Positions 10,399 to 63,688 of a DNA stretch of 64,000 nucleotides are shown piece by piece. The stretch spans positions 930,001-994,000 of the forward strand of contig NZ_CP061721.1 of assembly GCF_014764445.1 (NCBI RefSeq), read 5' to 3'. This DNA is from Pseudarthrobacter sp. BIM B-2242 (GTDB lineage: Bacteria; Actinomycetota; Actinomycetes; Actinomycetales; Micrococcaceae). How positions within the stretch are numbered: position 1 is the first letter of the stretch; every line of letters starts with the position of its first letter. Below the pieces are notes generated by a model, which made no database searches, was not told where the DNA came from, and saw only the letters and a program-made list of their open reading frames with translations. A program made the position numbers and the translations under genes.

Positions 10399-11076
10399 GT
10401 GGGAATGACGACGTTGCGGCGCACTGTCGCAGTGGCACTTATGGCCGGAGGTGCGATGCTTCTGGCACCCGCCCCGGCACATGCCGAGTACGTGTGCTGG
10501 ATGTCCGACGGTATCCGGTACTGCTACGACCCGAATGACGGCAAAGTCCCCGTGGAACCCGATCCCGTGCCCGTGGAACCCACGTACGTTCCCACTCCGC
10601 CGGCTCCCAGCGTGGAGCAGCCCTGGATCCAGCCTGTTCCTGTCGAGCCGGGTCCGGTCCAGCCCCTGCCGGCGCAGCCTGCTCCGGTACCGGCAGCCCC
10701 GCAGCCCGCGCCGGTTCCTGTTCCCATGCCAGTTCCCGTCTACGTCCCGCCGACAGTGGACGGCTACTACGCTCCGGCCGCGGCGGCCCCGGCGCCTGCG
10801 GCGGAGGTGGCACCCGCTGAACCGGTGGCCGCCGAGGCGGCGAGCGCGGCGGCAGTCCCCACTGCTTCCGCGAGCCCGACGGCGGCCACCGCGCCGTCGC
10901 CGGCGGTGTCACCCTCAGGGGCTGTCGCCTCCACTACGGGTCAGCCGGGCAGCGCGGAACCCTTTGACGGCCTGCCGGTGGTACTGGTAGCCGGCGGGGT
11001 CTTAGCGGTTGCCGCCGTTGCCTGGCTGGTGCCGCCTTTCCGGCGGGCTCTCCTGAGCCTGGCCAGGCTTGAATAA
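10399..11076 (+). CDS. Secreted or cell-surface Pro/Ala-rich protein with C-terminal anchor
   Basis: The 225-residue protein starts with a signal peptide (TTLRRTVAVALMAGGAM, cut after AHA). A short mature domain with two Cys (VCWMSDGIRYCYDPNDG) follows, then about 120 residues of Pro/Val/Ala repeats such as PVPVEP and PAPVP, and finally one hydrophobic helix near residues 195-215 with basic residues after it. This looks like a stalk that spans the wall and is held in the membrane. The GTG at 10399 has GGGGGAAA at the right distance; an ATG two codons later is the alternative. Confidence 0.75.
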   Translation: MGMTTLRRTVAVALMAGGAMLLAPAPAHAEYVCWMSDGIRYCYDPNDGKVPVEPDPVPVEPTYVPTPPAPSVEQPWIQPVPVEPGPVQPLPAQPAPVPAAPQPAPVPVPMPVPVYVPPTVDGYYAPAAAAPAPAAEVAPAEPVAAEAASAAAVPTASASPTAATAPSPAVSPSGAVASTTGQPGSAEPFDGLPVVLVAGGVLAVAAVAWLVPPFRRALLSLARLE

Positions 11077-11121
11077 AGCCTGCCCATTCCTGTGGGGAGG
11101 GGCCTGTGCAAGACTTCGGGC

Positions 11122-11679
11122 ATGAGCGACCCACGAAGCCGCATTCTTCCCCTTCTCCGCCAGGGTGAGCAGTTGTTGTGGGTGGGACAGCCCGATCCGC
11201 GCGTTCGGTTCACCGGGGCTGACGCTTTCCTAGTGCCGTTCAGTCTTCTCTGGGGAGGCTTTGCCGTCGTCTGGGAGGTCATGGCCATCACCAATGTCAG
11301 GCAGCCCCTGTTTATTCTCTGGGGCATCCCCTTTGTTCTGCTGGGCCTCTACTTCATCTTCGGCCGTTTCATTGTCAAAAGGCGGCGGAAGCTCGCCACG
11401 GTCTACGGGCTGACCACTTCACGGGCGATCGTCTGCACGGGCGAACGATCAGTAGCGGATTCCCCTGTCGCCGGCATGCCCACGAAGGTGGACAGGTCCC
11501 GGGACGGGCGGCACGTCAGCGTGACGTTCGGGTACCAGGGCCTGCTGGGCTTTGTGGGCATGTACCAGAACACCGGGCTCGATTTTTTCAGCCTAGGGAT
11601 GGGACAGACGGTGGCCTTTTACGACGTCGGCGATCCTGACGGGCTGTTACGGGCTCTGGACCAGGCCCGACCCGGATGA
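11122..11679 (+). CDS. Hypothetical membrane protein (PH-domain-like)
   Basis: The 185-residue protein opens MSDPRSRILPLLRQGEQLLWVGQPDP, typical of small actinobacterial proteins with two membrane helices (about residues 35-80) followed by a beta-rich domain resembling bacterial PH domains (TVYGLTTSRAIVC, then VDRSRDGRHVSVTF). The ATG at 11122 was chosen because the family-like opening starts there, although the Shine-Dalgarno is weak. Its stop overlaps the ATG of the next gene (ATGA at 11676-11679), so the two are translationally coupled. Function is unknown. Confidence 0.7.
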   Translation: MSDPRSRILPLLRQGEQLLWVGQPDPRVRFTGADAFLVPFSLLWGGFAVVWEVMAITNVRQPLFILWGIPFVLLGLYFIFGRFIVKRRRKLATVYGLTTSRAIVCTGERSVADSPVAGMPTKVDRSRDGRHVSVTFGYQGLLGFVGMYQNTGLDFFSLGMGQTVAFYDVGDPDGLLRALDQARPG

Positions 11680-45359: not shown

Positions 45360-46118
45360 TCACTGCAAAGGCAGCGGGTCAAAGCCGCCGGGCTGATAGT
45401 CACGATGTTGGCTATTGAGCCAGAAGTCGGTTGGGCTCCCAGGACGGGACATGCGGTCATCTTGGGAAGTCCAGATGATAATGTCCAGCAGTCGCAGGTC
45501 CGTTACTTTGCCAATATCGGATACCGCATGGGCGACTTGATCACGGATTTGTGTGAGTTCGCCCTGCTGTTGGCTGAGGATGCAGCGAAGTGTCAAAAGC
45601 GTTTGCTCGATGCGCCTCCAGCGAGGTTCCTTGCCGGAACGGAAGCCGTCCCTCCTGAAACCCATGGCCATCGCCACGTGTCCATCGAGAACTGGTACTG
45701 CGTCCGGCCTGTAAAGGGCAAGCATCTTTGTGACCTTCGGTGCCCACAGACCGCTATAGCCGGACCTACAAAGAAGAGTCAGGCCCTTCACCTCGGCATC
45801 GTTCATGTCGGCCAGGTTTTTGGCGGACAGCGAGGTGAGTCGTTGCACCAATTCAGTTCGAAATTCGTGCGTGAAGCCTGCCACGTCTGACGCTGACAAT
45901 CGTCCAGACAGCGAAGTGGCCCACAACAGCGACCAAGGGGCGATCTGCTTAAAGTGGCCATCTCGCCGAGCTACCAATCCTGGCATGTCGTATGTATGCC
46001 AGCCGCTCCTCGGGTGTGTGCAGTAGCTGACGACTCGTGCCACAAGGTCTTGTATCGGTGCGACCCCGATTCCTCCGGACATGCCGGGGGACAGATCCAT
46101 TTGAACGTGTGTGCTCAT
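45360..46118 (-). CDS. DUF6308-like protein
   Basis: The 252-residue protein has YSGLWAPKVTKMLALYRPDAVPVLDGHVAMAMGF near residue 125, a pattern I associate with DUF6308 proteins in accessory regions. It has no membrane segment and no recognised catalytic motif. AGGAAGAAG precedes the ATG. It lies between the NERD-helicase and the AddAB-like genes on the same strand, with gaps of about 100 and 79 bp, so it may belong to their operon. Confidence 0.6.
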   Translation of the reverse strand: MSTHVQMDLSPGMSGGIGVAPIQDLVARVVSYCTHPRSGWHTYDMPGLVARRDGHFKQIAPWSLLWATSLSGRLSASDVAGFTHEFRTELVQRLTSLSAKNLADMNDAEVKGLTLLCRSGYSGLWAPKVTKMLALYRPDAVPVLDGHVAMAMGFRRDGFRSGKEPRWRRIEQTLLTLRCILSQQQGELTQIRDQVAHAVSDIGKVTDLRLLDIIIWTSQDDRMSRPGSPTDFWLNSQHRDYQPGGFDPLPLQ

Positions 46119-48037: not shown

Positions 48038-48094
48038 TCAGGGCCTCTTTGAATTGGTAGCGACCAAGCAACCAAAACCAAAAAGAGACCCTGA
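48038..48094 (+). promoter_or_regulatory. Leader hairpin covering the transposase ribosome binding site
   Basis: TCAGGGCCTCTTT at 48038-48050 pairs with AAAGAGACCCTGA at 48082-48094 with one mismatch (12 of 13 bp). The right arm includes the AGAG Shine-Dalgarno and ends one base before the transposase ATG at 48096. Transcripts entering from outside would fold and hide the start; an alternative short hairpin uses AAAGAGG at 48031-48037. Confidence 0.55.
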
Positions 48095-49430
48095 CATGAA
48101 TAACTCTATGTCTTGTTCTGCTGGCCGCTGGTGCATGCGCGCGGATGCGCTGCTCGGTGTCGAGGGCGTCCACGTCAGCTCCGTCACGGCAACCAGGACT
48201 GGCCTCGTACTGGGCGTCGAAACCGATGTGGACCTCGCCGGTTGCCCGGACTGCGGCGTCGTCGCGGTCGGCCACGGACGCCGCCAGGTCCGGCTCCATG
48301 ACATTCCCTGTTTCGGCCAGCCGGTGCGGCTGCTGTGGGCCAAACGTGTTTGGCGCTGCCCGGACCCGGACTGCCCAAAAACAACATTCAGTGAAGAACA
48401 CCCGCTGGCCGGGCCGCGGGCGAAACTCACCGCCCGAGCCGCCCACTGGGCGACCGACGCGCTGCAGCGGTTCGATACCTCGGTCTCGGCCCTGGCCCAC
48501 CAGCTCGGGGTCTCCTGGCACACCGTCTGGGACGCCATCAGAGCAGAAGCCACCCGCCGCATCAGGAACTCCGATCGGCTCGCCGGCGTTGACGCGCTCG
48601 GGGTGGATGAGCACGTCTGGTCACACACCGGCCCGCCGGGATCCGGCATGGTCACCGGAATCGTGGACCACACCCGCGACGAGAACGGCGTGGTGCACGC
48701 ACGGCTACTTGACTTGGTTCCAGGCCGGTCCGGGAAGGCCTACGCCGACTGGCTCAAAGACCGTGGCCCCGGGTTCACCGCCGGGATCAAGACCGCCGCG
48801 CTGGATCCGTTCCGCGGCTACGCCAACGCGATCCGCGACGAACTGCCCGAAGCCATCACGGTCCTGGACGCCTTCCACGTCGTGAAACTCGGATCGGCCA
48901 TGGTCGACGAAGTCCGCCGCCGGGTCCAGCAGAACACTCTCGGCCACCGCGGACGCAAGGGTGACCCGCTCTACGGTATCCGCCGGACCCTGCAGATCGG
49001 CGCCGAACATCTGACCGACAAGCAGTCCGCCCGGCTCGATGCGAAACTCAATGCCGGAGACCCCGACGACGAAGTCACCCTCGCATGGCAGTGCTACCAG
49101 AAGCTCCGCAACATCTATCACGCCCGGCCGGAGCGGGGCAGGGAACTCGTGAATGAAGTCATTGGGTCCTTCCCGTCCTGCCCAATCCCGGAAGTCGCCC
49201 GCCTCGGCCGGACACTCAAACAATGGAAAACCGCGATCCTGGCCTACTTCGAAACGAACGGCGCCTCCAACGGGCCTACCGAAGCAATCAACGGAGTCAT
49301 CGAAACCACCCGCAGAATAGCCCGAGGCTTCCGCAACTTCACCAACTACCGGCTCAGATGCCTACTCGCCGCCGGCGGCCACCGGCACTACCGGATCAAA
49401 CAAACCAACCATGCGTAAATGCGAAGGGCC
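48042..49430 (+). mobile_element. ISL3 family insertion sequence
   Basis: The element contains one full-length ISL3 transposase. Its ends are tentative: the left end may start near GGCCTCTTTG at 48042 and the right near GAAGGGCC at 49423-49430, which are imperfect inverted repeats (about 8 of 14 bases). No 8-bp target duplication was found. It lies about 130 bp upstream of the NERD-helicase start, so it may change that gene's expression. Confidence 0.55.
48096..49418 (+). CDS. ISL3 family transposase
   Basis: The 440-residue transposase has the N-terminal zinc-finger region (CPDCGVVAVGHGRRQVRLHDIP, CPDPDC), a helix-turn-helix, and the DDE core: GVDEHVWSHT, then VLDAFHVVKLG and, at the C-terminus, NGPTEAINGVIETTRRIARGFRNF with the catalytic Glu. 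All elements look intact, so the element may be active. The ATG at 48096 was chosen over upstream start codons because it is preceded by AGAG; the hairpin upstream would regulate it. Confidence 0.93.
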   Translation: MNNSMSCSAGRWCMRADALLGVEGVHVSSVTATRTGLVLGVETDVDLAGCPDCGVVAVGHGRRQVRLHDIPCFGQPVRLLWAKRVWRCPDPDCPKTTFSEEHPLAGPRAKLTARAAHWATDALQRFDTSVSALAHQLGVSWHTVWDAIRAEATRRIRNSDRLAGVDALGVDEHVWSHTGPPGSGMVTGIVDHTRDENGVVHARLLDLVPGRSGKAYADWLKDRGPGFTAGIKTAALDPFRGYANAIRDELPEAITVLDAFHVVKLGSAMVDEVRRRVQQNTLGHRGRKGDPLYGIRRTLQIGAEHLTDKQSARLDAKLNAGDPDDEVTLAWQCYQKLRNIYHARPERGRELVNEVIGSFPSCPIPEVARLGRTLKQWKTAILAYFETNGASNGPTEAINGVIETTRRIARGFRNFTNYRLRCLLAAGGHRHYRIKQTNHA

Positions 49431-50485: not shown

Positions 50486-50638
50486 AGGTGTTCCCCCGGG
50501 AATGAGACTCAGATGTGAATGCTGGCGTGCTCAACAGCAAATGGATAGGTGCTGCATGAGCCCCGTGGCTGTTTCAACAGAACTCACAGTACTAGCACCA
50601 CGCGCCGTATGACTCACCGTCGCCAACAGGTCGGATGT

Positions 50639-51381
50639 TTAAAACCGGGCGCGGTGGGCAACTGAAGGCGAAGCCCCGGCGTCCCTCGGCTCGGCGGCGC
50701 CCTCAGCATTTCCCAGCACTCGCAAGAACACTGGGTTTGGCCGCGCGAAGGGCAGGGCGCGCTGGAGGTCTTCCATCGCCTCCAACGGAGACACTCCTGC
50801 AACGTGCGCGCCGTAGGGGTCCGCAACAGTAGGCGTCCGCGACTCCGCCCGGACACAATGCAGCAGCACAGTCTTGCCCTCCGCCCGGAATCGTTCGACG
50901 GCGGCTGCCGCCTCCCCGAGGACAAGGCCGCGTGTGTGGTGTCGTCTTTAGCAGCGGAGTCGACAACCCAGAAAGTGGAGTGGTCCTCCGGCGCCACGCC
51001 CGGCACATTGAGAGTGCCGAGCGCGCAGAGCGAGACCACGGCGTCGATGCCCAACTCAGGCCACGCGCTGAAGTGAGCCGACCCCGCCGAGCCACACGCC
51101 GCCGTCGTGCGGGTGCCGGACCAGCGCACCCGAGTCGCGAGGGAGGAGGACGCGGCGCCGGAGGCGGACTCCAGCAGTGCCTGCGCAATGGGGATCGCCA
51201 TGGACGTATCGTCGGTCCACTCGGCGGGGGCGAACCCGAACGGGCCGCGGCCCTTCATGGTCACGTCGGCGCCGTCCGGCAGCGGTGCGCCGAACTCGTA
51301 TCCGGCTCCGAGGGCGTCGCCGGCGGCCAAGGCGACGAGGACGCCGGCCGCGCGGTCATTCTGCAGGGGGTTCAGTTTCAT
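50639..51381 (-). pseudogene. Broken ADP-ribosylglycohydrolase / tyrosine phosphatase-like fusion
   Basis: The first 75 codons match the start of ADP-ribosylglycohydrolase (VLVALAAGDALGAGYEFGAPLP, WTDDTSMAIPIAQAL). The catalytic bulk is then deleted, and the sequence rejoins at the C-terminal dual-specificity phosphatase-like domain of such fusions: RHPHDGGVWLGGVGSLQRVA in a second frame, ELGIDAVVSLCALGTLNVPG in the first, and the active-site loop LLHCVRAESRTPTVAD in a third. At least two frameshifts are visible. The start ATG overlaps the ARPP-1 stop (ATGA), so it was once the second gene of that operon. Confidence 0.85.
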
Positions 51382-52343
51382 GCCATCTCCATCAGGGGGT
51401 GTCGGGTGTTCCAGCCGGTCAGGTGGGCCAGCTGCGGGCGGCGCTGGGGGAGCGCGACGGCGATGCCGGCCGCGGTCACCGCTCCGGCGGCACGGGCGAT
51501 GTTGCGGCTGCGGAGCGCGCCGTGGTCACGGACCTCGACGGCCGCCGGGCCGCCGTCGAACGTTCCGAAGTCCATCGCTTGGACGTGGGCGGCGAAGTCG
51601 CGGGCACGCTGGCCGGGCATCGGTCCGGATGCCAGCACCTGGGGCGACAGGAGCTCAAAGTCCAGCAGTGCCGCCTCGACCATCTGGCCGTAGTGGCGGA
51701 GGAACAGCGTGCTGGTGCCGAAGACCTCCAGGAGCAGCGGCTGCCGGCCGAGGCCGATCACCACGCCCCGCTGGCCTTCCAGCGGCTTCGGCGCGGCCGA
51801 CGCGTCGAAGCGGTTCCGTTCCTCCTTGTCGTTCTTGAACCAGTCCATGTGCTGGAGCAGGGAACTGGTGGCGGAAGCGCCGCGGGCGTTGTCGAAGCGG
51901 CTAACCCGCTCCCAGATCCGCCCCTGCCGGTTGCCGCCGCGCTCGCCATGAAGGCCGTTGGCCAGCTCTGACCAGACGTTCAGCGGGGCGCGGCGGGCCT
52001 GCCTCCGGTGGCTGGTCTCGCCCGCTTCCCAGCGGCCGGCTTCGACGCAGAACGTGTCAATGTCGCGGGTTTCGCCTGGACCGAGGACGACGTCGCGGGC
52101 ACAGATCCGGTGCTGCTGCCCGCCTTCGAGCAGCTCGCCCTCCAGCAGCAGTGCGGGGTGCGGGCCGTTGTTGGTGACGGTGAGGCGGGCCACCTGGGCA
52201 CCACTGGCGAGTTCGGTGACGGCGACGTCGGCGTGGGTGCCGGTGCTGATGCCGAGACTGCCGGAGCCTGAGGTCCAGACGGGGAAGAAGCTGAGGGGGC
52301 CAAGGGTGCTGCCGGCGCCGACGTGGAGCTGTGGGACTTTCAT
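51378..52343 (-). CDS. ARPP-1 domain protein (ADP-ribose-linked)
   Basis: The 321-residue protein has features of the ARPP-1 family, found next to ADP-ribosylglycohydrolase and phosphatase domains: LGPLSFFPVWTSG, a repeated beta pattern with LLLEGELLEGGQQHRI near residue 67, VWSELANGLHGERGGNRQGRIWERVSRFD, and GVVIGLGRQPLLLEVF. A strong GGAGG precedes the ATG at 52343. It is the first gene of an operon controlled by the divergent NrtR regulator. The role is probably in handling ADP-ribose derivatives; this is family-based inference. Confidence 0.82.
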   Translation of the reverse strand: MKVPQLHVGAGSTLGPLSFFPVWTSGSGSLGISTGTHADVAVTELASGAQVARLTVTNNGPHPALLLEGELLEGGQQHRICARDVVLGPGETRDIDTFCVEAGRWEAGETSHRRQARRAPLNVWSELANGLHGERGGNRQGRIWERVSRFDNARGASATSSLLQHMDWFKNDKEERNRFDASAAPKPLEGQRGVVIGLGRQPLLLEVFGTSTLFLRHYGQMVEAALLDFELLSPQVLASGPMPGQRARDFAAHVQAMDFGTFDGGPAAVEVRDHGALRSRNIARAAGAVTAAGIAVALPQRRPQLAHLTGWNTRHPLMEMA

Positions 52344-52429: not shown

Positions 52430-52438
52430 TAAGATGTG

Positions 52439-53101
52439 ATGGTTTCCAAGAACATTCCTGGCGCGTCCCTGCTCGACTACCCGCGACCGTCGGTGGCGGT
52501 GGATACGGCGGTGCTGACCGTCGCAGAGGGGAGCGTGTGCGTGCTGCTTGTGCGGCGCGCGGAAGACCATCAGCACGGACAGTGGGCCCTTCCTGGCACG
52601 TTCCTGCGCGAGCGGGAAACCCTGGCGGACGCGGTGCTGCGCTGCCTGCGCGAGAAGGCGGGGATTACCGGGCGGGTACCGCGGCAGTTGCAGGTGTTCG
52701 ACGAGCCTGGGCGCGACGATCGCGGCTGGGTGTTGTCAGTGGCGCACGTGGACGTCGTGCCGTTGGCGGCTCTGCAGGAAGCGCTAAAGTCCGACGGCGC
52801 CAGGCTGGCTTCCGTTACCGGGGAACTGGAGCTGATCGGCGGGCTGCCCTACGGGCACGCGGACATCGTGGCGAAGGCCGTGGACTGGCTGCGGACTGCC
52901 TATGTGGAGGCTCCGGATCCTGGGGCGTTGCTGGATGAGCCGTTTACGTTGAAGGATCTGCGGGAGCTGCACGAGGCGGTGGCGGGTGCTCCGTTGATGC
53001 GGGACACGTTCCGGCGGTTCATGGAGCCGAAGCTGGTCGGGACGGGGCAGATGTCCGACGGGACGCGGGGGAGGCCTTCGCGGTTGTGGCGAAGGCCCTA
53101 G
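52439..53101 (+). CDS. nrtR: NrtR-like Nudix-related transcriptional regulator
   Basis: The 220-residue protein has an N-terminal Nudix-like domain (AVDTAVLTVAEGSVCVLLVRRAEDHQHGQWALPGTFL) whose Nudix box is degenerate (RERETLADAVLRCLREKAGI lacks the paired Glu), and a C-terminal winged helix (EPFTLKDLRELHEAVAG, DTFRRFMEPKLVG). This is the NrtR layout: a sensor of ADP-ribose that has lost hydrolase activity. NrtR proteins repress NAD-related genes. The start is ATG 52439 or GTG 52436; there is no strong ribosome binding site. Confidence 0.87.
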   Translation: MVSKNIPGASLLDYPRPSVAVDTAVLTVAEGSVCVLLVRRAEDHQHGQWALPGTFLRERETLADAVLRCLREKAGITGRVPRQLQVFDEPGRDDRGWVLSVAHVDVVPLAALQEALKSDGARLASVTGELELIGGLPYGHADIVAKAVDWLRTAYVEAPDPGALLDEPFTLKDLRELHEAVAGAPLMRDTFRRFMEPKLVGTGQMSDGTRGRPSRLWRRP

Positions 53102-53358: not shown

Positions 53359-54243
53359 TCACTCGGCACGGGGCCAGTAGTTTAGTGTGCTCATGTCCCC
53401 GCGCTTCTTCGCTATCGTCCGGTAGCCATACTCGCCGATGACCTGGTCGAACAGCGGTCCATCCAAAACCGGGCTGACCTGGAAGCCACGTCTACCAGTG
53501 GCCGCGTTCTGTTCCCAGGTGTCGGAGAGGATCCGAAACAGGCCCCTAGTTACGCCGCGGTGAACGGCGACAACGTGGTCGATTCCTTCGGCTTCTATGC
53601 GGGTTTGGTTCAGCTTCCACCAGCAGCGGACGGAGTCGCCGAGCTCTGCGGCAAACTCAGACATGCCCTTGGCATTGAGCCATTCGGATTTGAAGCCATA
53701 GCCGGATCGCACGGATCCGCCGGGTGCCATTTCTTCCGCTTCAACCCAAGGCTTCAGGGTAACAAGCAGCAGGGGCGGAACGGCGCGGCCAAGATCCGGT
53801 GCCGCAAACTCGGCCACAATATTGTCCAAAGTCTCGATACCGTGTCCGTTGGATGCTTCGCGGCGGCCGTTGGTGAGCTGATCCAAGTGGGCTAAGGGGC
53901 GAGAGGCGTCGCCCGGTTGGAGCAGAAATGAACTCAGCAGGTCGATGGCAGACGCCTCAACCTGGGTGTATTCCGGGCCCATACTGTGCCGCAATATCCA
54001 GATTTCTGGTTTCAGTCCGGCGTCGTGAATGCTATTGATGGCGTCGAGCTTGCGCGAGCGCTCACTGCTGGGTTCATCTCCTGCGGGGGTCAGGGCTTTT
54101 GCCTCCAGTCCGTGGTCTAGAACGCGTGTCTTACTGCCCTTACCCACGTAGAACGGAATCCGCGTTTGCGGGTCAAGCAGTAGGTAAACGTAGTTGCCCA
54201 AGTAACCGGCGACTTGTTCCAGGACCTTCTTTTCGTCCGTCAT
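53359..54243 (-). CDS. GIY-YIG nuclease domain protein (LEM3-like)
   Basis: The 294-residue protein has the GIY-YIG nuclease fold at residues about 15-110: GNYVYLLLDPQTRIPFYVGKG, then R40-V-L-D-H and the metal-binding Glu96 in QVEASAIDLLSSF, as in LEM3/SLX1-type DNA nucleases. The rest (about 150-294) is a family-specific domain with HVVAVHRGVTRGLFRILSDTWEQNA. The ATG at 54243 overlaps the SIR2 stop (ATGA), with GGAGAG upstream. It is the last gene of a tightly coupled three-gene operon. Confidence 0.83.
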   Translation of the reverse strand: MTDEKKVLEQVAGYLGNYVYLLLDPQTRIPFYVGKGSKTRVLDHGLEAKALTPAGDEPSSERSRKLDAINSIHDAGLKPEIWILRHSMGPEYTQVEASAIDLLSSFLLQPGDASRPLAHLDQLTNGRREASNGHGIETLDNIVAEFAAPDLGRAVPPLLLVTLKPWVEAEEMAPGGSVRSGYGFKSEWLNAKGMSEFAAELGDSVRCWWKLNQTRIEAEGIDHVVAVHRGVTRGLFRILSDTWEQNAATGRRGFQVSPVLDGPLFDQVIGEYGYRTIAKKRGDMSTLNYWPRAE

Positions 54244-55835
54244 GACTCTCTCCACTCATTGTTTGCAGAATGGCCGAGCCCGTCGAGCGTCTGGTCGAGC
54301 AACGCCCACACCTCCTCGGTTCCGGGCGGTCGCGGCTGCTCAGCCAGTTTCAGCAGTTGGGCGCGCAACTGTGCCTCGGTGTGATTTAGGCCGGCGTCGT
54401 AGGCGGGTGCCAGCAAATACGAGTGATTGTCGGTAGCGTAAGCGCCTAACATGTCCAGGAAGACTTCGAGCTCTCGTCCGGATATCGCCAGCGCAAGCTT
54501 TGATTGATCGACGTTCAAGTGGCCGGCGCCGGACTCCGCCGGCATCGAGAGGATGTCCAGCTTGCCCTTCCAGACCATGGACTGAAGTGGCTCATGAAAA
54601 AGGGAGAGTACCGTCCCCATGTGGTGCCCCTCGGAGAGCCCCTCCGGCAGAGCCCGCCTGACATCGTGGACGATCTCATGGAAATGGTCGTCTGCCAGGC
54701 CGAAACCCACGAAGAGTAAATGGTGTGTCAGCAGATGTGCCTTGACCAAGGCGGACAGGGCTTCGCGGTTGCTGTTGTAACCAAGGTAGTCGTCACGCGT
54801 CAAAACGATTGATGCAGGTTGGCTGACGGATCCGTGCAATTTCAAGAGCCAGCTGTTGCCGACTGCAGGTATGTTCTCCGGCAGGACGGTTCGCGGCCGT
54901 TGGGCATCGTGGCACGCCAACTCGAAGAGTCGGTCATAGTTCAGCGTGATTGCTCCCGAAGAGGGGACGGCGGCAAGCAGCGCGGGCGCCAAGCCATACT
55001 TCTGCAGGTCCACGGCCCTCGCGACGGCTTCGCCAAAGGCAGCCCGGGAACCGTGCTGGTCGATGTAGAGCTGCTCCAGCACGCCGGCCTGATCGAGCAC
55101 TGCCAGCTTCTCGAATGCAGCAACTGCACCCTCGTCCAACTGGACTCCAGCGCGCAAGGCCGTAAGCAAATCTCTCCAGCTCGGCGCTCCGGCGCTAACG
55201 CTGACCCCCGCACCAAGAAAGGGCACCAAGTGGCCAGAGCGCGCGAGCTTGCCGAGCCCTTGCGCCTTGGCATGCAGTTCGTCACCAAGCGAAGGCCAGC
55301 ACTCCGAGCCGCCCGCGTCCCGGCGAAGCTTCTGGGCCAGAGAGAAGGCTGCCTTGTCGCGGAGCACGATGACTAAGTCGACGGCGAACTTAGTAGCCAG
55401 ATTCGCGCAGACGTCCAGCAGCCCGCGCAGCATAGCCCCGAGGTGGTTTCCTGCACCGCCGCCGGCCGTCCCGAAGAACGGAACGGCCAGCAATCTGTAG
55501 GGCCGCAGCGCCGGACTGGAAGTGGCGCCGGTGGCGGCACGCACGAATGCCTCCAGTCGCCGCGCCACAGCAGTGGAATCCCAGATGCCGTCCAGCGGAA
55601 CCGCAGTCAGAACGGGGAGTGGATCCGCCGGTTCCCAGGCGGCCACGGGCTCCGCGAGAACTGTCCCTGCTCGGAAATCTTTCGAAGCCGATGCGGCAGC
55701 GATTCCTTGGAGGTCGGGGTTCGCCCGCAGCCAATGCTGTTCGATTCGGACGGTGGAGTCCGTAGGAAGCAGCCAAGCATCGCATTTGAGGTTGAGCATG
55801 TCTGCCATAGCGACGAAGACGTGAGGCCGGGTCAT
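54240..55835 (-). CDS. SIR2 family NADase-like protein with possible macro-like N-terminus
   Basis: Residues about 200-400 carry a SIR2 domain: HLVPFLGAGVSVSAGAPSWRDLL, LNYDRLFEL with N299, LKLHGSV with H334, and FVGFGLADDHF, the residues that form the NAD site and active centre of defence-type SIR2 NADases. Residues about 5-165 (FVAMADMLNLKCDAWLLPTD, LLAVPFFGTAGGGAGNHLGA) resemble a macro-like domain, a tentative reading. A C-terminal 100-residue part is unassigned. The ATG at 55835 overlaps the upstream stop. SIR2 proteins in phage defence drain NAD on infection; the nuclease partners suggest a related trigger. Confidence 0.85.
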   Translation of the reverse strand: MTRPHVFVAMADMLNLKCDAWLLPTDSTVRIEQHWLRANPDLQGIAAASASKDFRAGTVLAEPVAAWEPADPLPVLTAVPLDGIWDSTAVARRLEAFVRAATGATSSPALRPYRLLAVPFFGTAGGGAGNHLGAMLRGLLDVCANLATKFAVDLVIVLRDKAAFSLAQKLRRDAGGSECWPSLGDELHAKAQGLGKLARSGHLVPFLGAGVSVSAGAPSWRDLLTALRAGVQLDEGAVAAFEKLAVLDQAGVLEQLYIDQHGSRAAFGEAVARAVDLQKYGLAPALLAAVPSSGAITLNYDRLFELACHDAQRPRTVLPENIPAVGNSWLLKLHGSVSQPASIVLTRDDYLGYNSNREALSALVKAHLLTHHLLFVGFGLADDHFHEIVHDVRRALPEGLSEGHHMGTVLSLFHEPLQSMVWKGKLDILSMPAESGAGHLNVDQSKLALAISGRELEVFLDMLGAYATDNHSYLLAPAYDAGLNHTEAQLRAQLLKLAEQPRPPGTEEVWALLDQTLDGLGHSANNEWRES

Positions 55836-56410
55836 GATAGTGCCCTCAGAATTCGGACGCTGTTCCGCTCAAACGCAGCAGTACCGTTACCGTCGGGCGC
55901 CGCGATGCGGATCAAGGGCGGCTGGCCCATGGCAGGAATTACTAGATCGCGCAAAGCGTCATTGTAGGCTCTTTGGCGCTGTCGGCCACCGGGGCCGAAG
56001 CCGGAGGCTGCCTTATTGAGCCGGTACGCATCCGCTGTTCGGCAGTACTTTTTGCATAGGTTCACGTACTCGTCAGAGTCGAATCCCAGGCTGGCGTCCG
56101 CTGGATAGTGTGCGAAGGTCCGCATGCGGTAGCTGGTGAAATGCTGAACCTCATCGATTTCGATCATCGTCCCAGTGGGCAGGTGGATGAAGTCGCCGGG
56201 CAGCGCAGTTGTCCGCTTAGCTGATTGTGCCTCACCGTCGCCGCCAAGTTCGTGAAAGATCTTGTCCAAGATAATGAATTCGGCTCCGGCATCACCGGGC
56301 AAGCCGAAGTGGCCCCGCTGATTCAGCCACGGTTGTTTGTACCTGACCAGCTCGATGCCTTCGTGGGCAGCTGCTTCCAAGAACGAGTTTTCGCAATCTC
56401 CGACGGGCAT
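55832..56410 (-). CDS. PD-(D/E)XK-like nuclease, DUF7255-like, first gene of the SIR2 operon
   Basis: The 192-residue protein has EFIILDKIFHELGGDGEAQ followed by LPGDFIHLPTGTMIEIDEVQHFT. The pattern D73 ... E84-I-D-E87-x-Q-H fits the PD-(D/E)XK core seen in Vsr/DUF559-type nucleases, with a C-terminal RQRQRAYNDALRDLVIPAMG helix. I associate it with DUF7255. The ATG at 56410 was preferred to a GTG two codons earlier because AGGA is then at 7-base spacing. The stop overlaps the SIR2 start. Confidence 0.72.
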   Translation of the reverse strand: MPVGDCENSFLEAAAHEGIELVRYKQPWLNQRGHFGLPGDAGAEFIILDKIFHELGGDGEAQSAKRTTALPGDFIHLPTGTMIEIDEVQHFTSYRMRTFAHYPADASLGFDSDEYVNLCKKYCRTADAYRLNKAASGFGPGGRQRQRAYNDALRDLVIPAMGQPPLIRIAAPDGNGTAAFERNSVRILRALS

Positions 56411-56594
56411 TCCCACATCCTAGGGCCGCTAGCCGAAAGAATGTCACTTGACAGGTCCGGGCGCACAGCTGTCTGAGGCACAGAGTCAAAGCAACGTCGC
56501 TGTTGCTGGCGCTGGAATGGCTCCGCGGGGTGAGAACCTGGCTGCACATGAGTCCGCGACAGGCAAGATTTCTGCGGATGTGCGAGCTTTCGCC

Positions 56595-57134
56595 CTAGTT
56601 CATCGACTTTTCAACTATGCGGATGTCGACTTCTGATGGTTCCTCATCCAGATAGAGTCGGCCAGACCTGTGAAGTTCCAGCCCAGCGTCGAGGTACGGG
56701 CGCATAGTATTCCGTGGAATGCCTGCCTCGCGTTCCATTAGACGGCGGTTGATTTCCCCATTTCGAAGTCTTGACGGGTCCAGCGCCATTCGAGTCCAAA
56801 CACGTGCGAGCTTCACGATCGCTTTCTTCCGAAGTAACTTGGGGGACGTGAACGGGTCTGGGCTGTCCCTAGCGGTGCCGTCATCAAATGCCTGCGATCC
56901 GACGTTGACCATGGCCAGGAGCCCGTCCACGGTTTCGGGCAGGTGTCGACCATTAAACTCGGTTGCGTCATTCTCACTCGTTGCGGTCTGGGACGCCTGG
57001 TGGAGTTTCAACTCCTCTGATGCTGAGTGAAGGCGCCGAGCCAACTCTTCGAGGAGCTCCGCGTTGGAAAAGTCTGAAATTCGGACCTCGCGATTTTGCA
57101 CCCCTTCAACGTTTTCGTCTGTTTTTCGATTCAT
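56595..57134 (-). CDS. Hypothetical protein with C-terminal HTH-like segment
   Basis: The 179-residue protein has a helical, coiled-coil-like N-terminus (NAELLEELARRLHSASEELKLHQ) and a C-terminal region, RLRNGEINRRLMEREAGIPRNTMRPYLDAGLELHRSG, that reads like a winged helix-turn-helix. There is no strong ribosome binding site. It lies 184 bp upstream of the PD-(D/E)XK-SIR2-GIY-YIG operon on the same strand and is divergent from the PLD-helicase gene, so it could regulate either. Confidence 0.55.
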   Translation of the reverse strand: MNRKTDENVEGVQNREVRISDFSNAELLEELARRLHSASEELKLHQASQTATSENDATEFNGRHLPETVDGLLAMVNVGSQAFDDGTARDSPDPFTSPKLLRKKAIVKLARVWTRMALDPSRLRNGEINRRLMEREAGIPRNTMRPYLDAGLELHRSGRLYLDEEPSEVDIRIVEKSMN

Positions 57135-57172
57135 TCGGTCACAATATCGAGAACAGGCGTATACAGGAATTC

Positions 57173-57182
57173 CGAATATTCG
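57173..57182. promoter_or_regulatory. Palindrome in a divergent promoter region
   Basis: CGAATATTCG at 57173-57182 is a perfect 10-bp palindrome, overlapped at its left by GGAATTCC (57166-57173). It lies between the starts of the divergent genes at 57134 and 57242 and may bind the HTH-like protein. Confidence 0.35.
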
Positions 57183-57205
57183 ATGGGCCGAACACTGCAG
57201 CTGAG

Positions 57206-57235
57206 TTGGCTCCGGTCCCTCCCGCGAAATACCCT
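57206..57235 (+). promoter_or_regulatory. Candidate promoter of a leaderless PLD-helicase mRNA
   Basis: TTGGCT at 57206-57211 and TACCCT at 57230-57235 are separated by 18 bases. The GTG start lies 6 bases after the -10 element, so transcription would begin at or next to the start codon. No ribosome binding site is present, which fits a leaderless transcript. Confidence 0.4.
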
Positions 57236-57241
57236 GGCGCA

Positions 57242-60200
57242 GTGACTAATTTCTTTGGGGGAGTGGCAGCGGAGCAGCTGCCCGAGGGCTTGTACGAACT
57301 GCTGAGCACGGAGGTGCTCAGTAACCGTCTGAGCAAAGAGCAAGAACTCCATCCAGTCTTCGCAAACGTAGACGACGAGGACACCCCGGATATCCTCTCC
57401 CGCCACGTTGCCGACGCCGTGCGCCAAGCCCTGGAAGCAGCCAAACCGACTGAACGTGTCGCCCTTGCAAACAAGCTTCTCCAAGAGCTAAAGCACGCGG
57501 ACCGCATCGCGCCAGGTCCTGCCCAATTACGGTCCCTTCACCGCCCGGACACCCTGAAGCGCCGCCAACTCCGCAGACCCACCACCAAGCTCAGTGACTC
57601 AGCGCTGCTGACCAATAGCAAGGACGAGCCAAATCTCGCCGCGGAGCTCCGGGCCGAGATCGGGTCCGCGAACACCGTCGACCTGCTCTGCGCCTTCGTC
57701 CGCTGGACGGGGCTCCGTCTGCTGGAGCCTGCCCTGGAGCAGCTCAAAGAACGCGGTGCCAGACTCCGAGTCCTCACCACCACCTACATGGGCGCCACGG
57801 AACGCCGCGCCATCGACGAGCTCGTCAACCGCTACGGCGCCGAGGTCAGGATCAACTATGAAACCCAGGCCACTCGCCTCCACGCAAAGGCCTGGTTGTT
57901 CCGCAGGAACTCCGGCTTCGACACCGCGTACGTCGGGAGCTCCAACCTCAGCCAGGCTGCACTGCTGGATGGCCTGGAATGGAACGTCAGGCTCAGCTCC
58001 GTCGGTACCCCCACGCTGCTGCAAAAGTTCGAGGTCACCTTCGACAGCTACTGGGAGCAGCGGGCCTTCCAAAGCTACGATCCGGAACGCGACGGCGAAA
58101 GGCTGGATGCCGCGCTGGAACGCAACGGAGGGCGGCGCACCGCAGTCCCGGGCGCGGCTACAGGGCTGGAAGTGCAGCCGTTCCTCCACCAGGAAGAGAT
58201 GCTCGAGGAGCTGGAAGCCGAGCGGCTCAAGGGTTTCAACCACAACCTCCTGGTCGCGGCCACCGGCACCGGGAAAACAGTCATCGCGGCACTGGACTAC
58301 AAACGCCTGTCTGAGGCTGCCGGCCGTGATCTCAAGTTGCTCTTCGTCGCCCACCGACAGGAAATCCTGAAGCAAGCGATGCGTACTTACCGCGACGTCA
58401 TGCAGGACGGCGCTTTTGGTGAACTCTACGTGGGGGACCACAAGCCCAAAGAGTGGAAGCATATCTTCGCTTCCGTCCAGTCGTTGTCATCGCTCGGCAT
58501 CGAACAGCTGGAGCCGGACTTTTTCGACGTCGTCGTCATCGATGAGTTCCACCACGCCATGGCGCCCACGTACCGGCGCCTGCTGGATTATCTCCAGCCG
58601 CAGCAACTTCTCGGACTGACTGCGACGCCGGAACGTGGCGACGGCGTCGACGTCGCCAAGCAGTTCTTCGATGGCCGCACCGCCAGCGAGCTGCGGCTCT
58701 GGGATGCGCTGGATGCTGACCTGCTGGTGCCGTTCCACTACTTTGGTGTGTCTGACGACGTTGACTTGAGCCAGTTGGAATGGAAGCGCGGCAACTACGA
58801 CGCCGCCCAGCTCAGCAACCTGTACACCGGTAACGACGCCCGCGCCGCCAAGGTGATCCGCGAACTCCGCGACAAGGTCACCAGCACCGATCAGATGCGG
58901 GCCATCGGCTTCTGCGTATCGGTCCAGCACGCCCACTACATGGCGGAGGTGTTCAACCGTGCAGGCATAGCTGCGGTTGCCGTTGATGGCAGCACTGACG
59001 ACGCCGACCGCGCAGACGCGCTGGAGAGACTCCGCCGGCGGGAGATCAACTGCATCTTCGCAGTCGACCTCTTCAACGAAGGGCTGGATCTGCCGCAGGT
59101 GGACACTATCCTGCTGCTCCGGCCGACGCAGAGCGCCACGATTTTCCTCCAGCAACTGGGTCGGGGGCTGCGCCGCGCCGAGGGCAAGGCGGTGCTGACC
59201 GTCATGGACTTCATTGGCCAGCAACGGCGTGAGTTCCGCTTTGACCTGCGCTACCGGGCCCTGACCGGTTACGGGCGCAAGGAATTGGAAAAGGCCGTCG
59301 AGGACGAGTTCCCCTACCTGCCGTCGGGCTCGCAGATCGTGCTGGACCGGGTGGCACAGAAGGTGGTGCTGGACAACATCAAGGCACAGTTGCGGTTTAA
59401 CCGAGCGCAGTTGGTCCGGGATATTGCCTCGTACGCGGAGACCGAGCTGGAGGCCTATCTGGAGCAGTCCGGGAACGACGTGAAGTCGATCTATCGGTCG
59501 ACGAGGGATTCGTGGACCGGCTACCTTCGCCTGGCTGGGCTGATCGAGGGCTTCTCTCCCCTGGAGACGGTGCTCCGCGGGAAGATCGAGGACAGGACGG
59601 ACGCCGACGAGAAGAAGCTGCTGGGCCGGATGGCTGCCCTGATTCATGTGGATGACCCAGAACGCGCAGAGGCGTACTCGATGCTGGTCGGCCCCGATGC
59701 GCCCCGCTATGCGGAGCTGGGAATGCGTGAGCAGACTTTTGCCCGGATGCTGTTCTATACGTTGTGGGACGACGGCGGCGGTTTCCAGACGTACGACGAC
59801 GGACTGGACTACCTGCGCGGCTACCAGTTTGTGTGCAGCGAGATCCGCCAGATCGTGAAGCTTGGGGTGGCCGCTTCCAAGCACGCCGCCAAGGGGCTGG
59901 GAGCGGGGCTGCAGCACGTTCCATTGCTTTCGCACGCAACCTACCGGCGTGAAGAGATCTTGGCCGCCCTGCAGTACGGGTCGCTGGAGCTCGGCAAGAA
60001 TGTGCAGCACCGGGAGGGCGTGGCCTGGTGCCCGGCGACCTCCACCGACGCCTTCTTTGTGACGCTGAACAAAGACGACAAGAAGCATTCGGCCACCACA
60101 ATGTATAAGGACTACGCCATCAGCCCCGAGCTGTTCCACTGGGAATCGCAGAACGCGACGTCGCCAGGGAGCCCGACGGGGAAGCGGTACCTGGACCGGG

Positions 60201-60397
60201 CATCGCACGGCTCCAAGGTTCTGATCTTCACCAGGGATACAGCCGACGACGAGACCGGGCTGACGGTTCCATACACATGCCTGGGCCAGGTGGACTACGT
60301 GCAGCACAAGGGTGAAAAGCCCATTGCCATCACGTGGAAGCTGCACCGGCCGATGCCGGCGGATGTGTTCGCCACGGCTGCTCCGGTGGCGCAGTGA
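57242..60397 (+). CDS. PLD-DEAD/DEAH helicase-DUF3427 protein
   Basis: The 1051-residue protein has an N-terminal phospholipase D-like nuclease domain ([29 protein letters not shown], with H, K and the Asn-Ser), then a superfamily II helicase: [21 protein letters not shown] (Walker A), [18 protein letters not shown] (DEAH-like), [10 protein letters not shown], and [10 protein letters not shown]. The C-terminus is DUF3427 ([43 protein letters not shown]). The start was set at GTG 57242 because the upstream extension overlaps the divergent gene. Proteins of this layout are enriched near restriction and defence genes; the target is unknown. Confidence 0.87.
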   Translation: [1051 protein letters not shown]

Positions 60398-60530: not shown

Positions 60531-62630
60531 CTATTCCCCACCCATCTGGTACTCGAAAGCCTGACGAACCAAGCCGATGGTGTAGCCGAGGTCGGTCTCC
60601 TCGTTCAGGCTGACCTCGGTTGGGCCATTGCCCCAATGCCCCTTGTCGCTGACGTCCCAGGCAAGGCCCCGCTCGTCTCGGAGTGCCTCGAGTGGGATGT
60701 TGAGGCTCAACCTCAGCCGAGCCTTCTGCGGGACCACGTCGACGAAGTTAGTCTCAGCCTTAAAAGCGACGTATTGCTTCAAGAATTGCTGAGTGACGAC
60801 TGGGTCTAGGGCCAGAACTTCCGCACTAAACTTTTCGAATAGGGCTCGTCGCGGCTGCTTGAGCAGATGTGGGTGGTCTTCAATGGAGAAATCCGACTCT
60901 GCACGTCTTTTTTGTAACTCCGTGATCGTTTGGGCTGGCAGTTCCGGCAGGGACCAGATCTTGAGCGCATCGTCTGCCAGCCGCGCGTTGCGTTTTTGGA
61001 TCTCGCTCGCGTTCCAGAATTCGAGTTGCCCTAACCCCTTGTTGAGCCTGAGCGGGCTGTCTTTGAACCCTCCCTCCATGTCGCGCTTCTTTGCGAACGC
61101 GTGATCGGAGTACTCCGAGTTGTAGCCCGTGAGCGTGAGGTTTCCGAGCGTGTGCAGGTAAGTCGATTGCACGTCCTGCCAGTCTTCCCCAAGAGACAAT
61201 TGCCATTCATCCGACAGGTTCTCGTTCTGCGGCATTATGTGCTCGATCGTGTAATCCTCGATCGTCACGCGCTCCTTGCGGCCGTAGTTCTCCAGCATGC
61301 GAAAAAAGTAAGAGCGCCGGCGAAAGTTGTACAGGTCACTGGACTTGAGCCCGGAAACGAACTCGGCGTCAGTCGGAAATCTGCGGTAGCTCTTGAAGCC
61401 GAGAAAGTTTGCCTTAACGCTCTCGAGATACCGATCCTTGCGCACAGCTGAACTGAAGCCAGCAAAGGTCTTGTTCAGCGAGTTGGTCGGGATGCGGCAA
61501 ACCGCGCGGCGGAAGATGTACGAGGTAACTAAATCAACGATCTGGAGCACGCCGTCGCGAGTCAAAGTCCCGAGCTCGTAGTCCGTGTAGACATCGAGCA
61601 GGAAAGGGTAGACGACATCAGCCTTGATCTGGTCCAGGTCCTTAAAGGCCCGCCACAAGGTCGGATCCGTCTCCTTGCCCAACGCCATCGCGCAGTAGCG
61701 GCGCGCGTACTGACGCAGCTCGATAACGAGAGACTCGATTGTTTCGTCCGCGCTTGTGAAAGCTGTCGCGTGATCCTTGAATGCGTCATAGATGCCGTCC
61801 AAGCGAGGTATCTCGCCGGTCTTATTGGTCAGGTAATGGCGGACGAACTCATCGAACTGACTCTCCTCAGCACCCATAAACTCGAGCTCCATTGGACGCC
61901 AATAGGCCGAGTAGACTTTCTCCTGCTGTTTGGGTGGCAGGTCCATGAGGACGTAGTTGCGAATCAGATCGGCCTGGGACAGCTTCTTGCCGGTCGAGTT
62001 CATGGCTTCAAAGACGAGCTGGGGGTTGTCCACCCCGCGCTCGAGCTTTACATCGACGACGACGAGTTTGTCGAGGCCGCGGCAGACGAGGGACAAATCG
62101 AGCTTCGGATCATCAAGCTTCCGCCGGAAGTAGGAATAGTTCTCGATGACGCGGGTTTCCGTGTCGTTGGCCGGCTCCGCTCCCTGTAGGATCGCGATCA
62201 ACGCCGGCCTGTCGCTCTGGGACAAGATCAGCTTGAACTGACGTTCACCTTCTTCATCATCATTGAGTAGGTAGCGATTCCGGATCTTTCGCGGAGAGAA
62301 ACCGTCCCAGGGCTCCCGCTGACCGTCCGGTAGTGCCTCCAGCCGGTCAACCAGAGCTGCGAGTATCAGGGTTACAGTGGTGACCCGCTGCTGGCCATCG
62401 ATGATCAGATCGGGCTCAGCGGAGGTGTTAGTGGCTTGATCCTTTGCGACGTAGACGATAGACCCCGTGAAATGTGACCCAAGTGCCGCAGTCGATCCCG
62501 CGCGGAGGATATCTGCCCACAACTGCGCGCACTCCGCTTCGTGCCAAGAGTAAAGGCGCTGGTAGATCGGCACTATGAACTGACTGCTCGCTTTCAGCAG
62601 CGTAAGTAGATGCGAGTCAACGGCCTTCAC
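60531..62630 (-). CDS. GmrSD-like DUF262/DUF1524 protein
   Basis: The 699-residue protein has the DUF262 ParB/Srx-like nucleotidase domain at its N-terminus (FIVPIYQRLYSW, DGQQR at residues 78-82, VFEAMNSTGKKLSQADLIRN) and the DUF1524 HNH nuclease near residue 480 (IEHIMPQNE, LHTLGNLTLTGYNSEYS). A C-terminal domain (about 600-699) resembles DUF5655. This is the fused GmrSD layout of type IV restriction enzymes acting on modified DNA. The GTG at 62630 has GAAGGAG. It is divergent from the brx-like genes. Confidence 0.88.
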   Translation of the reverse strand: MKAVDSHLLTLLKASSQFIVPIYQRLYSWHEAECAQLWADILRAGSTAALGSHFTGSIVYVAKDQATNTSAEPDLIIDGQQRVTTVTLILAALVDRLEALPDGQREPWDGFSPRKIRNRYLLNDDEEGERQFKLILSQSDRPALIAILQGAEPANDTETRVIENYSYFRRKLDDPKLDLSLVCRGLDKLVVVDVKLERGVDNPQLVFEAMNSTGKKLSQADLIRNYVLMDLPPKQQEKVYSAYWRPMELEFMGAEESQFDEFVRHYLTNKTGEIPRLDGIYDAFKDHATAFTSADETIESLVIELRQYARRYCAMALGKETDPTLWRAFKDLDQIKADVVYPFLLDVYTDYELGTLTRDGVLQIVDLVTSYIFRRAVCRIPTNSLNKTFAGFSSAVRKDRYLESVKANFLGFKSYRRFPTDAEFVSGLKSSDLYNFRRRSYFFRMLENYGRKERVTIEDYTIEHIMPQNENLSDEWQLSLGEDWQDVQSTYLHTLGNLTLTGYNSEYSDHAFAKKRDMEGGFKDSPLRLNKGLGQLEFWNASEIQKRNARLADDALKIWSLPELPAQTITELQKRRAESDFSIEDHPHLLKQPRRALFEKFSAEVLALDPVVTQQFLKQYVAFKAETNFVDVVPQKARLRLSLNIPLEALRDERGLAWDVSDKGHWGNGPTEVSLNEETDLGYTIGLVRQAFEYQMGGE

Positions 62631-62914: not shown

Positions 62915-63688
62915 TTGGGGCCGTTCGATGACCGCGATATTGTCAGTGGCCATGTGCCCGGCGGCACGAACACTAGCCACACGATTGCCATCGGACACCT
63001 GACTTCACTTCTCTCTGCAGTGCCCAAGGCGTCTGGCCTGGCCGATTACGAAATGGCCGCCGTCGAGCACAACGTGCTCGGACGGGCTACAACGGAGGGC
63101 CGCCGGCGGACCTTCCGCTATTTGCGCGAACTGTACCTTCTCGATCCCAACCGCATAATGTTCCGGGCAATGCGTGACCTGTGGGACGAAGATGAGAAGG
63201 CACAGCCTCTCTTAGCTGGTTTGTCGGCCATGGCGCGAGACAGCGTTTTCCGGGCGTCTGCTTCGGGTCTCCTCGCGTTCGATGAGGGAGCGCTCGTGAC
63301 GGCTGAAATGCTCACCGGACTTGTAGAAGCCGCGTTTCCTCATGCATATAACGAAGGTACAGCGGCCAAGATTGGTCGGAACACTGCATCGTCATGGACG
63401 CAGACAGGGCATCTCCACGGCCGGGCTTCAAAAACTCGCCGGCAAGTGGAGCCGCGCCCAGCGGCGCTGGCGTTCGCGCTCCTCCTTGGCCACTTGCAGG
63501 GAGCCCGTGGGCCGTCCCTATACGACACTCAGTGGACAGCGTTCTTCGATGCGGACGTGCGCGAAATCGAGGCCATGGCCGGAGTCGCCGGCCAGCGTGG
63601 GTATATTGAGCTACGATCCGGGGGCGGGATTGTCGAGATCGGGTTCCGGCACCTTCTGAGACCCATGGAGGATCTTGCAAATGAGTGA
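62915..63688 (+). CDS. brxA: BrxA-like protein (DUF1819-like)
   Basis: The 257-residue protein contains EHNVLGRATTEGRRRTFRYLRELYLLDPNRIMFRAMRDLW, a pattern resembling the BrxA (DUF1819) family, which starts many BREX phage-defence loci. It has no membrane segment. The TTG at 62915 was chosen because AGGAG lies 7 bases upstream; earlier TTG and GTG codons lack this. The gene overlaps the next one by eight bases, in the brxA-brxB order. The assignment rests on pattern memory and context. Confidence 0.65.
   Translation: MGPFDDRDIVSGHVPGGTNTSHTIAIGHLTSLLSAVPKASGLADYEMAAVEHNVLGRATTEGRRRTFRYLRELYLLDPNRIMFRAMRDLWDEDEKAQPLLAGLSAMARDSVFRASASGLLAFDEGALVTAEMLTGLVEAAFPHAYNEGTAAKIGRNTASSWTQTGHLHGRASKTRRQVEPRPAALAFALLLGHLQGARGPSLYDTQWTAFFDADVREIEAMAGVAGQRGYIELRSGGGIVEIGFRHLLRPMEDLANE

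Follow-up and report, generated by a model that had tools for sequence, protein, structure and literature searches.

Among the reported triggers of SIR2 NADases are cyclic ADP-ribose isomers for ThsA, the phage tail tube protein for DSR2 and an Argonaute partner for SPARSA, and the Kongming complexes have been solved with deoxyinosine triphosphate (dITP), according to the titles of the structures. Iyer et al. (2022, PMC9503650) predicted the ARG-centric systems computationally and proposed that they reverse phage ADP-ribosylation. The ADP-ribosylglycohydrolases of that survey are described as picked without coupled ADP-ribosyltransferases (ARTs) or sirtuins; a regulator, Nudix or WYL, lies beside the hydrolase in over 42% of the systems, and NrtR is reported to sense ADP-ribose (PMC9503650). 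A further relevant enzyme, CMoRE, is PD-T4-3 renamed, a one-gene type IV enzyme reported to degrade DNA carrying 5-hydroxymethylcytosine or glucosyl-hydroxymethylcytosine (PMC12923530). Here, we analyzed 64,000 nucleotides of Pseudarthrobacter sp. BIM B-2242 (contig NZ_CP061721.1, positions 930,001 to 994,000; hereafter referred to as the window), with a focus on three open reading frames (ORFs) at 53359-56410, the central one of which (ORF2) encodes a macrodomain-SIR2 fusion and lies beside ADP-ribose genes resembling those of the ARG-centric systems.

ORF2 (54240-55835, minus strand) encodes a protein of 531 amino acids, in which a reader-like macrodomain at residues 1-172 (55320-55835) is followed by a SIR2 domain at residues 185-470 (54426-55283). 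The latter matches SIR2_2 (PF13289, E 1.7e-27, Pfam), and its catalytic residues N299 (codon 54939-54941) and H334 (codon 54834-54836) do not vary among the 51 aligned proteins, namely the window protein and 50 hand-picked relatives from which near-duplicates and damaged copies were dropped. The PADLOC matches of ORF2 are confined to the SIR2 part and point to ThsA and further SIR2 effectors, and this domain, of the ThsA/DSR2/KomC class, matches these NADase effectors best. The top 50 Foldseek rows for the whole ORF2 model were all SIR2 proteins, and the macrodomain surfaced in the VIA-align list; it has a conserved Asp12 and a GTGxGG loop, and no NAAN motif. The initial annotation, made from the sequence alone, thus correctly placed ORF2 among the SIR2 proteins of NADase effector type, with an Asn/His active site, but it overlooked the N-terminal macrodomain.

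We then compared ORF2 with the described SIR2 and macrodomain effectors. It carries the SIR2 domain with catalytic Asn and His that Thoeris membership would call for, but the C-terminal SLOG/STALD domain is missing, the best PADLOC ThsA match covers only 20-213 of 478, and no TIR domain was found among the 19 window proteins, a subset of the window genes, that were scanned with Pfam. Whereas SIR2-SLOG ThsA has a C-terminal SLOG domain, ORF2 has an N-terminal macrodomain as its putative reader; for lack of SLOG, Thoeris membership was rejected. The TM-macro ThsA of Thoeris is reported to be an abortive-infection effector with a macrodomain that reads ADP-ribose-like signals, a role that ORF2 may share by analogy, although the effector part is transmembrane there and a SIR2 domain here (PMC11204291). 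Membership of DSR1/DSR2 was also rejected: the SIR2 catalytic residues and fold are shared, but those proteins are of ~1000 amino acids or more, and ORF2 scored 17.5 bits against NF041819 and 13.4 bits against NF041818, for cut-offs of 1400. PADLOC PDC-S25 matched all 51 aligned members, but its match in the window protein spans only about residues 293-398, and it was likewise set aside.

The genes that recur beside ORF2 are those of ADP-ribose metabolism. In the window, just downstream of ORF3, an NrtR-like Nudix-helix-turn-helix regulator (52436-53101, plus strand, convergent with ORF3; NUDIX 2.2e-11, NrtR_WHD 4.5e-11) is accompanied by an ARPP-1 protein (51378-52343, minus strand; PF20208, 4.3e-55) and a broken ADP-ribosylglycohydrolase gene (50614-51381, minus strand), in which about residues 72-348 have been lost; what is left of the family, ~71 N-terminal and ~140 C-terminal residues, does not share a single frame. 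The hydrolase is intact, in the same gene order, in a same-genus genome (G005) and in Arthrobacter sp. SO5 (locus L076). We collected the best 80 ORF2 loci of at least 254 ORF2-encoding genomes among 84,980 species-level genomes, and profiles built from the neighbors found a hydrolase at 24 of these loci (within 8 kb of the macrodomain-SIR2 gene), a Nudix gene at 25 and ARPP at 17; these profiles were trained on part of the loci they scored, whereas the hydrolase count obtained with the Pfam model is independent. The latter was made in a sample of 396 genomes of the order, where 8 of 20 genomes have a hydrolase no more than 5 kb from ORF2, one of the eight hydrolases being the window's own broken copy, compared with 0.12 expected under uniform placement (P ~1e-13, a calculation that ignores shared ancestry). 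The set of 20 comprises the 22 genomes with ORF2 relatives except two (G078 and G148) that match the SIR2 core only; G266, with a match from residue 184 on, and G063, whose ORF2 is divided between two frames, were retained. In the ORF2 tree (95 rows, omitting the truncated, frameshifted or SIR2-only L040, L042, L043, L105 and L107, as well as L094), a hydrolase or Nudix gene was present in the available DNA in 26 of the 36 rows of the window's clade vs. 4 of the 59 others. The position of ORF2 relative to these genes varies (upstream, downstream or convergent).

These neighbors agree with the described content of ARG-centric systems. The regulator-hydrolase pairing is found at the window, with the Nudix gene intact and the hydrolase present but broken, and both are intact in L076 and G005. 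Among the accessory modules, ARPP occurs in the window, and a phosphatase-like hydrolase C-terminus, TY-Chap2 and an NT5C-type 5'-nucleotidase occur in relatives, and nuclease modules are shared as well; some of the 80 loci also carry N-formylglutamate amidohydrolase. The DSPc match of the L076 hydrolase, at 32.0 bits, is just under the Pfam cut-off of 33.5. As ARPP was found in only 5 of the 396 genomes, the ARPP-bearing core is uncommon. The difference is that ARG-centric systems were defined without a coupled sirtuin or ART, whereas a macrodomain-SIR2 gene is a frequent neighbor here; given this selection rule, the sirtuin link falls outside the survey of Iyer et al., and we found no macrodomain-SIR2 protein described within an ARG-centric system in the open-licence papers searched. 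The initial annotation had proposed listing where the three families of the locus are adjacent, and the recurrent partners of ORF2 proved to be the Nudix, ADP-ribosylglycohydrolase and ARPP-1 genes, none of which it had mentioned.

We propose, at a probability of roughly 0.45, that ORF2 is an ADP-ribose-gated NADase effector that can join ARG-centric systems as an optional module and that, at this locus, is expressed along with type IV restriction. The protein would act as an abortive-infection effector: its macrodomain would read ADP-ribose, free or on phage-modified host molecules, and this would turn on the SIR2 domain, which would destroy NAD+. In actinobacteria, it would be an optional addition to ARG-centric systems, which are thought to undo phage ADP-ribosylation and may comprise an ADP-ribose-sensing Nudix repressor, an ADP-ribosylglycohydrolase-phosphatase, ARPP-1, a chaperone and a nucleotidase. 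Members of the Arthrobacter group would also have gained, in the same slot, a predicted nuclease of the DUF7255 family (ORF1) and a CMoRE-type enzyme (ORF3) that may cut cytosine-modified phage DNA.

Several observations weigh against this proposal. Of the 20 genomes, 12 lack a hydrolase in the 5 kb on either side of ORF2, and neither a hydrolase nor a Nudix gene is seen in the available DNA at 55 of the 59 tree rows outside the 36-row clade or at 10 of the 36 rows within it, one of these 10 being a 4-kb contig. The window's own hydrolase is broken, and ORF2 is absent from all nine other sampled genomes of the genus, although two of them (G005 and G183) have the ARG core. The chance calculation leaves kinship aside, and the systems of Iyer et al. 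are described as chosen for the absence of sirtuins (PMC9503650). In distant homologues (Myxococcota, Planctomycetota and others), ARPP lies near ORF2 in two (L109 and L119), and no other recurring partner was evident among clusters seen in at least three loci. Neither the Asn of NAAN nor the GGxxG loop, which we take as the reference motifs, is present in the macrodomain, whose ligand may therefore differ.

The linkage to ADP-ribosylglycohydrolases would also fit an ART toxin, with the SIR2 domain of ORF2 acting on a host target and the linked hydrolase undoing the modification, as in DarT-DarG or in the sirtuin-macrodomain pairs that have been described as toxin-antitoxin systems (PMC9503650). 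We consider this quite unlikely, as the SIR2 domain best matches the NADase effectors ThsA, DSR2 and KomC, and the 12 genomes without a nearby hydrolase count against it as well. Moreover, the window has lost its hydrolase beside an intact ORF2, an argument against the hydrolase as an obligate antitoxin; the genome does, however, carry another ADP-ribosylglycohydrolase gene at a different place.

Alternatively, the macrodomain-SIR2 protein could have a metabolic or housekeeping function and serve NAD or ADP-ribose homeostasis rather than defence. NrtR-type regulators govern NAD metabolism, and a 19-row Geodermatophilaceae-type clade (Blastococcus, Modestobacter, Geodermatophilus and related genera), which also counts against an ARG-linked effector, has shared chromosomal neighbors and no hydrolase; the neighborhood looks vertically inherited across L117-L155. 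We nevertheless regard such a role as improbable, since the contents of the slot differ among genomes of the same genus, the neighbors are those of a defence island and the SIR2 domain is of the anti-phage effector class. This neighborhood, common to ~18-20 of the loci within L117-L155, includes a cytochrome P450-like gene.

ORF2 is flanked in the window by ORF1 (55832-56410, minus strand; 192 amino acids, with an ATG start and a possible alternative GTG start at 56416) and ORF3 (53359-54243, minus strand; 294 amino acids). The initial annotation described three minus-strand genes joined by ATGA overlaps, at 55832-55835 (ORF1/ORF2) and 54240-54243 (ORF2/ORF3), and both overlaps were confirmed. 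It knew of no named system with this combination, and PADLOC has none that covers all three genes. The overlap between ORF2 and ORF3 is kept in all three relatives with both genes in line, where it spans four bases (ATGA) in L077 and 11 in both L078 and L079; the four-base overlap between ORF1 and ORF2 recurs in L076, whereas L078 and L079 have a gap of ~50 bp instead. As deposited, the ORF3 homologue of L077 (9602-10485) is frameshifted near its start, through either a natural change or a sequencing error. Promoter and terminator scans gave no signal over shuffled background, and a repeat search, run with no shuffle control, gave no candidate paired cassette ends. The three genes may be co-transcribed and could cooperate, and they are probably translated as a unit here, yet with members that can work apart.

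The trio is a local assembly and not one conserved system. Across the 396 genomes, ORF2 relatives were found in 22, DUF7255 in 10 and ORF3 relatives in 7, and all three families occurred together only in the window's own genome; two genomes (G150 and G189) have both ORF2 and DUF7255, far apart or on separate contigs. The full trio was detected at two of the 80 loci, in Arthrobacter sp. 9V (L078) and in a Paenarthrobacter metagenome-assembled genome (L079), both of the Arthrobacter group. ORF1 and ORF2 are together in L076, whose ORF2 is 92% identical to that of the window, ORF2 and ORF3 are together in L077, and L080 has a scrap of ORF3. A profile search over the 80 loci found no ORF1 or ORF3 orthologues beyond L076-L080, and these five loci form, with the window and L081, one seven-row clade of the ORF2 tree. 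Missing neighbors are weak evidence at some loci (e.g., L092, L115 and L132), as their flanks are short.

That the overlapping genes form one obligate three-part system, in which the nucleases serve to sense or process DNA while the SIR2 protein carries out the effector step, was the view of the initial annotation, and the gene overlaps and the full trio at L078 and L079 speak for it. The distribution does not bear it out: only one of 396 genomes has all three, the sets in L076 and L077 are partial with a mere remnant of ORF3 in L080, and ORF2 stands without ORF1 and ORF3 at 76 of the 80 loci (L080 counted among them). We thus find an obligate system distinctly improbable. The same 76 loci would fit accretion within an island, in which three independent defence genes came to share one transcript without any functional tie to one another or to the ARG set. 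This is favored by the several other defence genes of the island, BREX included, by the single-component state of all 274 CMoRE systems in the reported survey (PMC12923530) and by the DNA identity between the window and L076, which is limited to 54269-56444, that is, ORF1 and ORF2 with hardly any flank on either side, as expected of a two-gene cassette. Accretion alone is nonetheless somewhat unlikely, as the link between ORF2 and the ARG genes is far over chance and recurs in differing gene orders, and the overlap between ORF2 and ORF3 is present in three of three relatives.

Searches of mobile elements with the three proteins gave little. No confirmed relatives were found in viral contigs scanned with ORF2 (single sequence and alignment), the ORF1 alignment and ORF3, and a tblastn search with ORF2 in phage records returned three records matching the SIR2 part only, none spanning 80% of the protein. 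In plasmids, 116 records matched ORF2, none spanning 80%, and the 30 matches listed begin at residue 192 or later; ORF1 had no match, and ORF3 had seven partial matches only.

The sequence of ORF3 identifies it as a divergent CMoRE homologue and hence a predicted type IV restriction endonuclease. It matches the LEM-3-like GIY-YIG family (PF22945, E 1.1e-7, Pfam), PADLOC PD-T4-3 (E 5.5e-17) and the solved CMoRE structure 9u75 (E 2.5e-12 as a single sequence), and a profile of six sequences (ORF3 and five relatives) matches both domains of 9u75 at E 5.6e-34. The C-terminal modification-sensing domain is detected by this profile (independent E-value, 1.2e-5) and only weakly by the window protein alone (0.34). 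The GIY-YIG core noted earlier for the third gene is sound: the GIYxY-YIG motif (Y18, Y20 and Y32), R40 and E96 are invariant in 6/6, with Arg and Glu at the expected catalytic places, as in CMoRE. The catalogue thus has a match for ORF3 by itself, as the one-gene PD-T4-3/CMoRE, and none for the trio as a whole, so that a direct match to a catalogued system, named in the initial annotation as a refutation, is found in part. The inhibitory loop of CMoRE is reported to be negatively charged, with a run of four acidic residues in the E. coli enzyme, and to be present in most but not all members (PMC12923530); ORF3 reads GDEPSSE at this position, without four acids in a row. ORF3 also differs in overlapping another gene, whereas CMoRE stands alone.

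ORF1 is a predicted nuclease, on the basis of motif resemblance. It matches DUF7255 (PF23913, E 3.6e-15, Pfam) and has no PADLOC match; its motif, D73...E84-x-D86-x3-H90, resembles PD-(D/E)XK variants. In an alignment of 12 DUF7255 proteins, E84, D86, H90, F91, R95, a QRA triplet, D151, D155 and R168 are invariant, and D73 is kept in 8. The motif noted earlier is thus conserved, and the assignment to PD-(D/E)XK nucleases is a prediction from this motif. The AlphaFold2 model, built on four close sequences, is poor (predicted local distance difference test score, 55.5); Foldseek with this weak model gave no fold match at E 0.001, and the best matches of a 12-sequence DUF7255 profile to the PDB were short stretches of dehydrogenases, with no nuclease. 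No paper naming DUF7255 was found among the open-licence papers searched.

The locus occupies a variable slot between the Nudix gene and a PLD-ResIII-DUF3427 type IV restriction helicase (56963-60397, plus strand; PADLOC mREase_IV, 1134 bits; start codon uncertain), which forms its right edge. DNA synteny between the window and G005 breaks at 53091 and returns at 57230: the gene order in G005 is NERD helicase, another gene, hydrolase (491 amino acids), ARPP-1, Nudix, TY-Chap2, another DUF7255 and restriction helicase, so that TY-Chap2 and DUF7255 fill the slot that holds the trio in the window. Another genome of the genus, G183, has this core too, and beyond it lie ~7.6 kb without a match to any of the profiles, where a simple caller tuned to the codon usage of the window found no gene. 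ORF0 (56595-57134) had no match in Pfam, PADLOC or NCBIfam. Between ORF2 and the Nudix gene of L076, where the window has ORF3, lies an open stretch (10416-11246) that combines a PD-T4-3-like portion with a PDDEXK_4 nuclease portion; labelled GIY in the tree, it was rejected as an ORF3 orthologue because it is a different protein.

To the right, the island runs on from the restriction helicase to a GmrSD-like protein (60531-62630, minus strand; GmrSD_N 2.5e-33, GmrSD_C 5.7e-23) and BREX, which confirms the expected defence-island setting. The BREX system begins at 62954-63688 and continues beyond the window (L075), with BrxA, BrxC, PglX, PglZ and BrxL, and two PglX-like genes in this region open with identical 70 residues. 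An ISL3-family transposase (48054-49418) separates the NERD helicase from the ADP-ribose genes, and DUF6308 genes are found near ADP-ribosylglycohydrolase and ORF2 in two genomes (window, 45360-46100; L039, 11635-12309). An uncharacterized protein of ~525 amino acids (L024, 9794-11368; L062, 9959-11536; 38% identity between the two), matched by neither Pfam nor PADLOC, is encoded immediately upstream of ORF2 in G380 and, in G052, immediately upstream of a CMoRE homologue.

The nuclease trio is local and matters less than the tie between a macrodomain-SIR2 protein and ADP-ribose-removal genes, which is the stronger finding. The trio joins two defences suited to the same kind of phage, since T-even phages are reported to carry hydroxymethylcytosine (PMC12923530) and T4 to carry ADP-ribosyltransferases (PMC9503650). 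A two-layer defence against T4-like phages encoded in one operon, with type IV nucleases first attacking cytosine-modified phage DNA and, should they fail, phage ADP-ribosylation triggering abortive infection through the macrodomain-SIR2 protein, is unlikely as a whole; if true, the damage done by phage ADP-ribosyltransferases would itself be the trigger of abortive infection. Compared with the reported triggers of SIR2 NADases, the built-in macrodomain and the ADP-ribose-stripping neighbors suggest a different one, in which ADP-ribose would be the signal and might betray a phage attack. The ARG-centric systems thereby gain a candidate killing module, which makes host sensing of phage ADP-ribosylation testable with a single purified protein.

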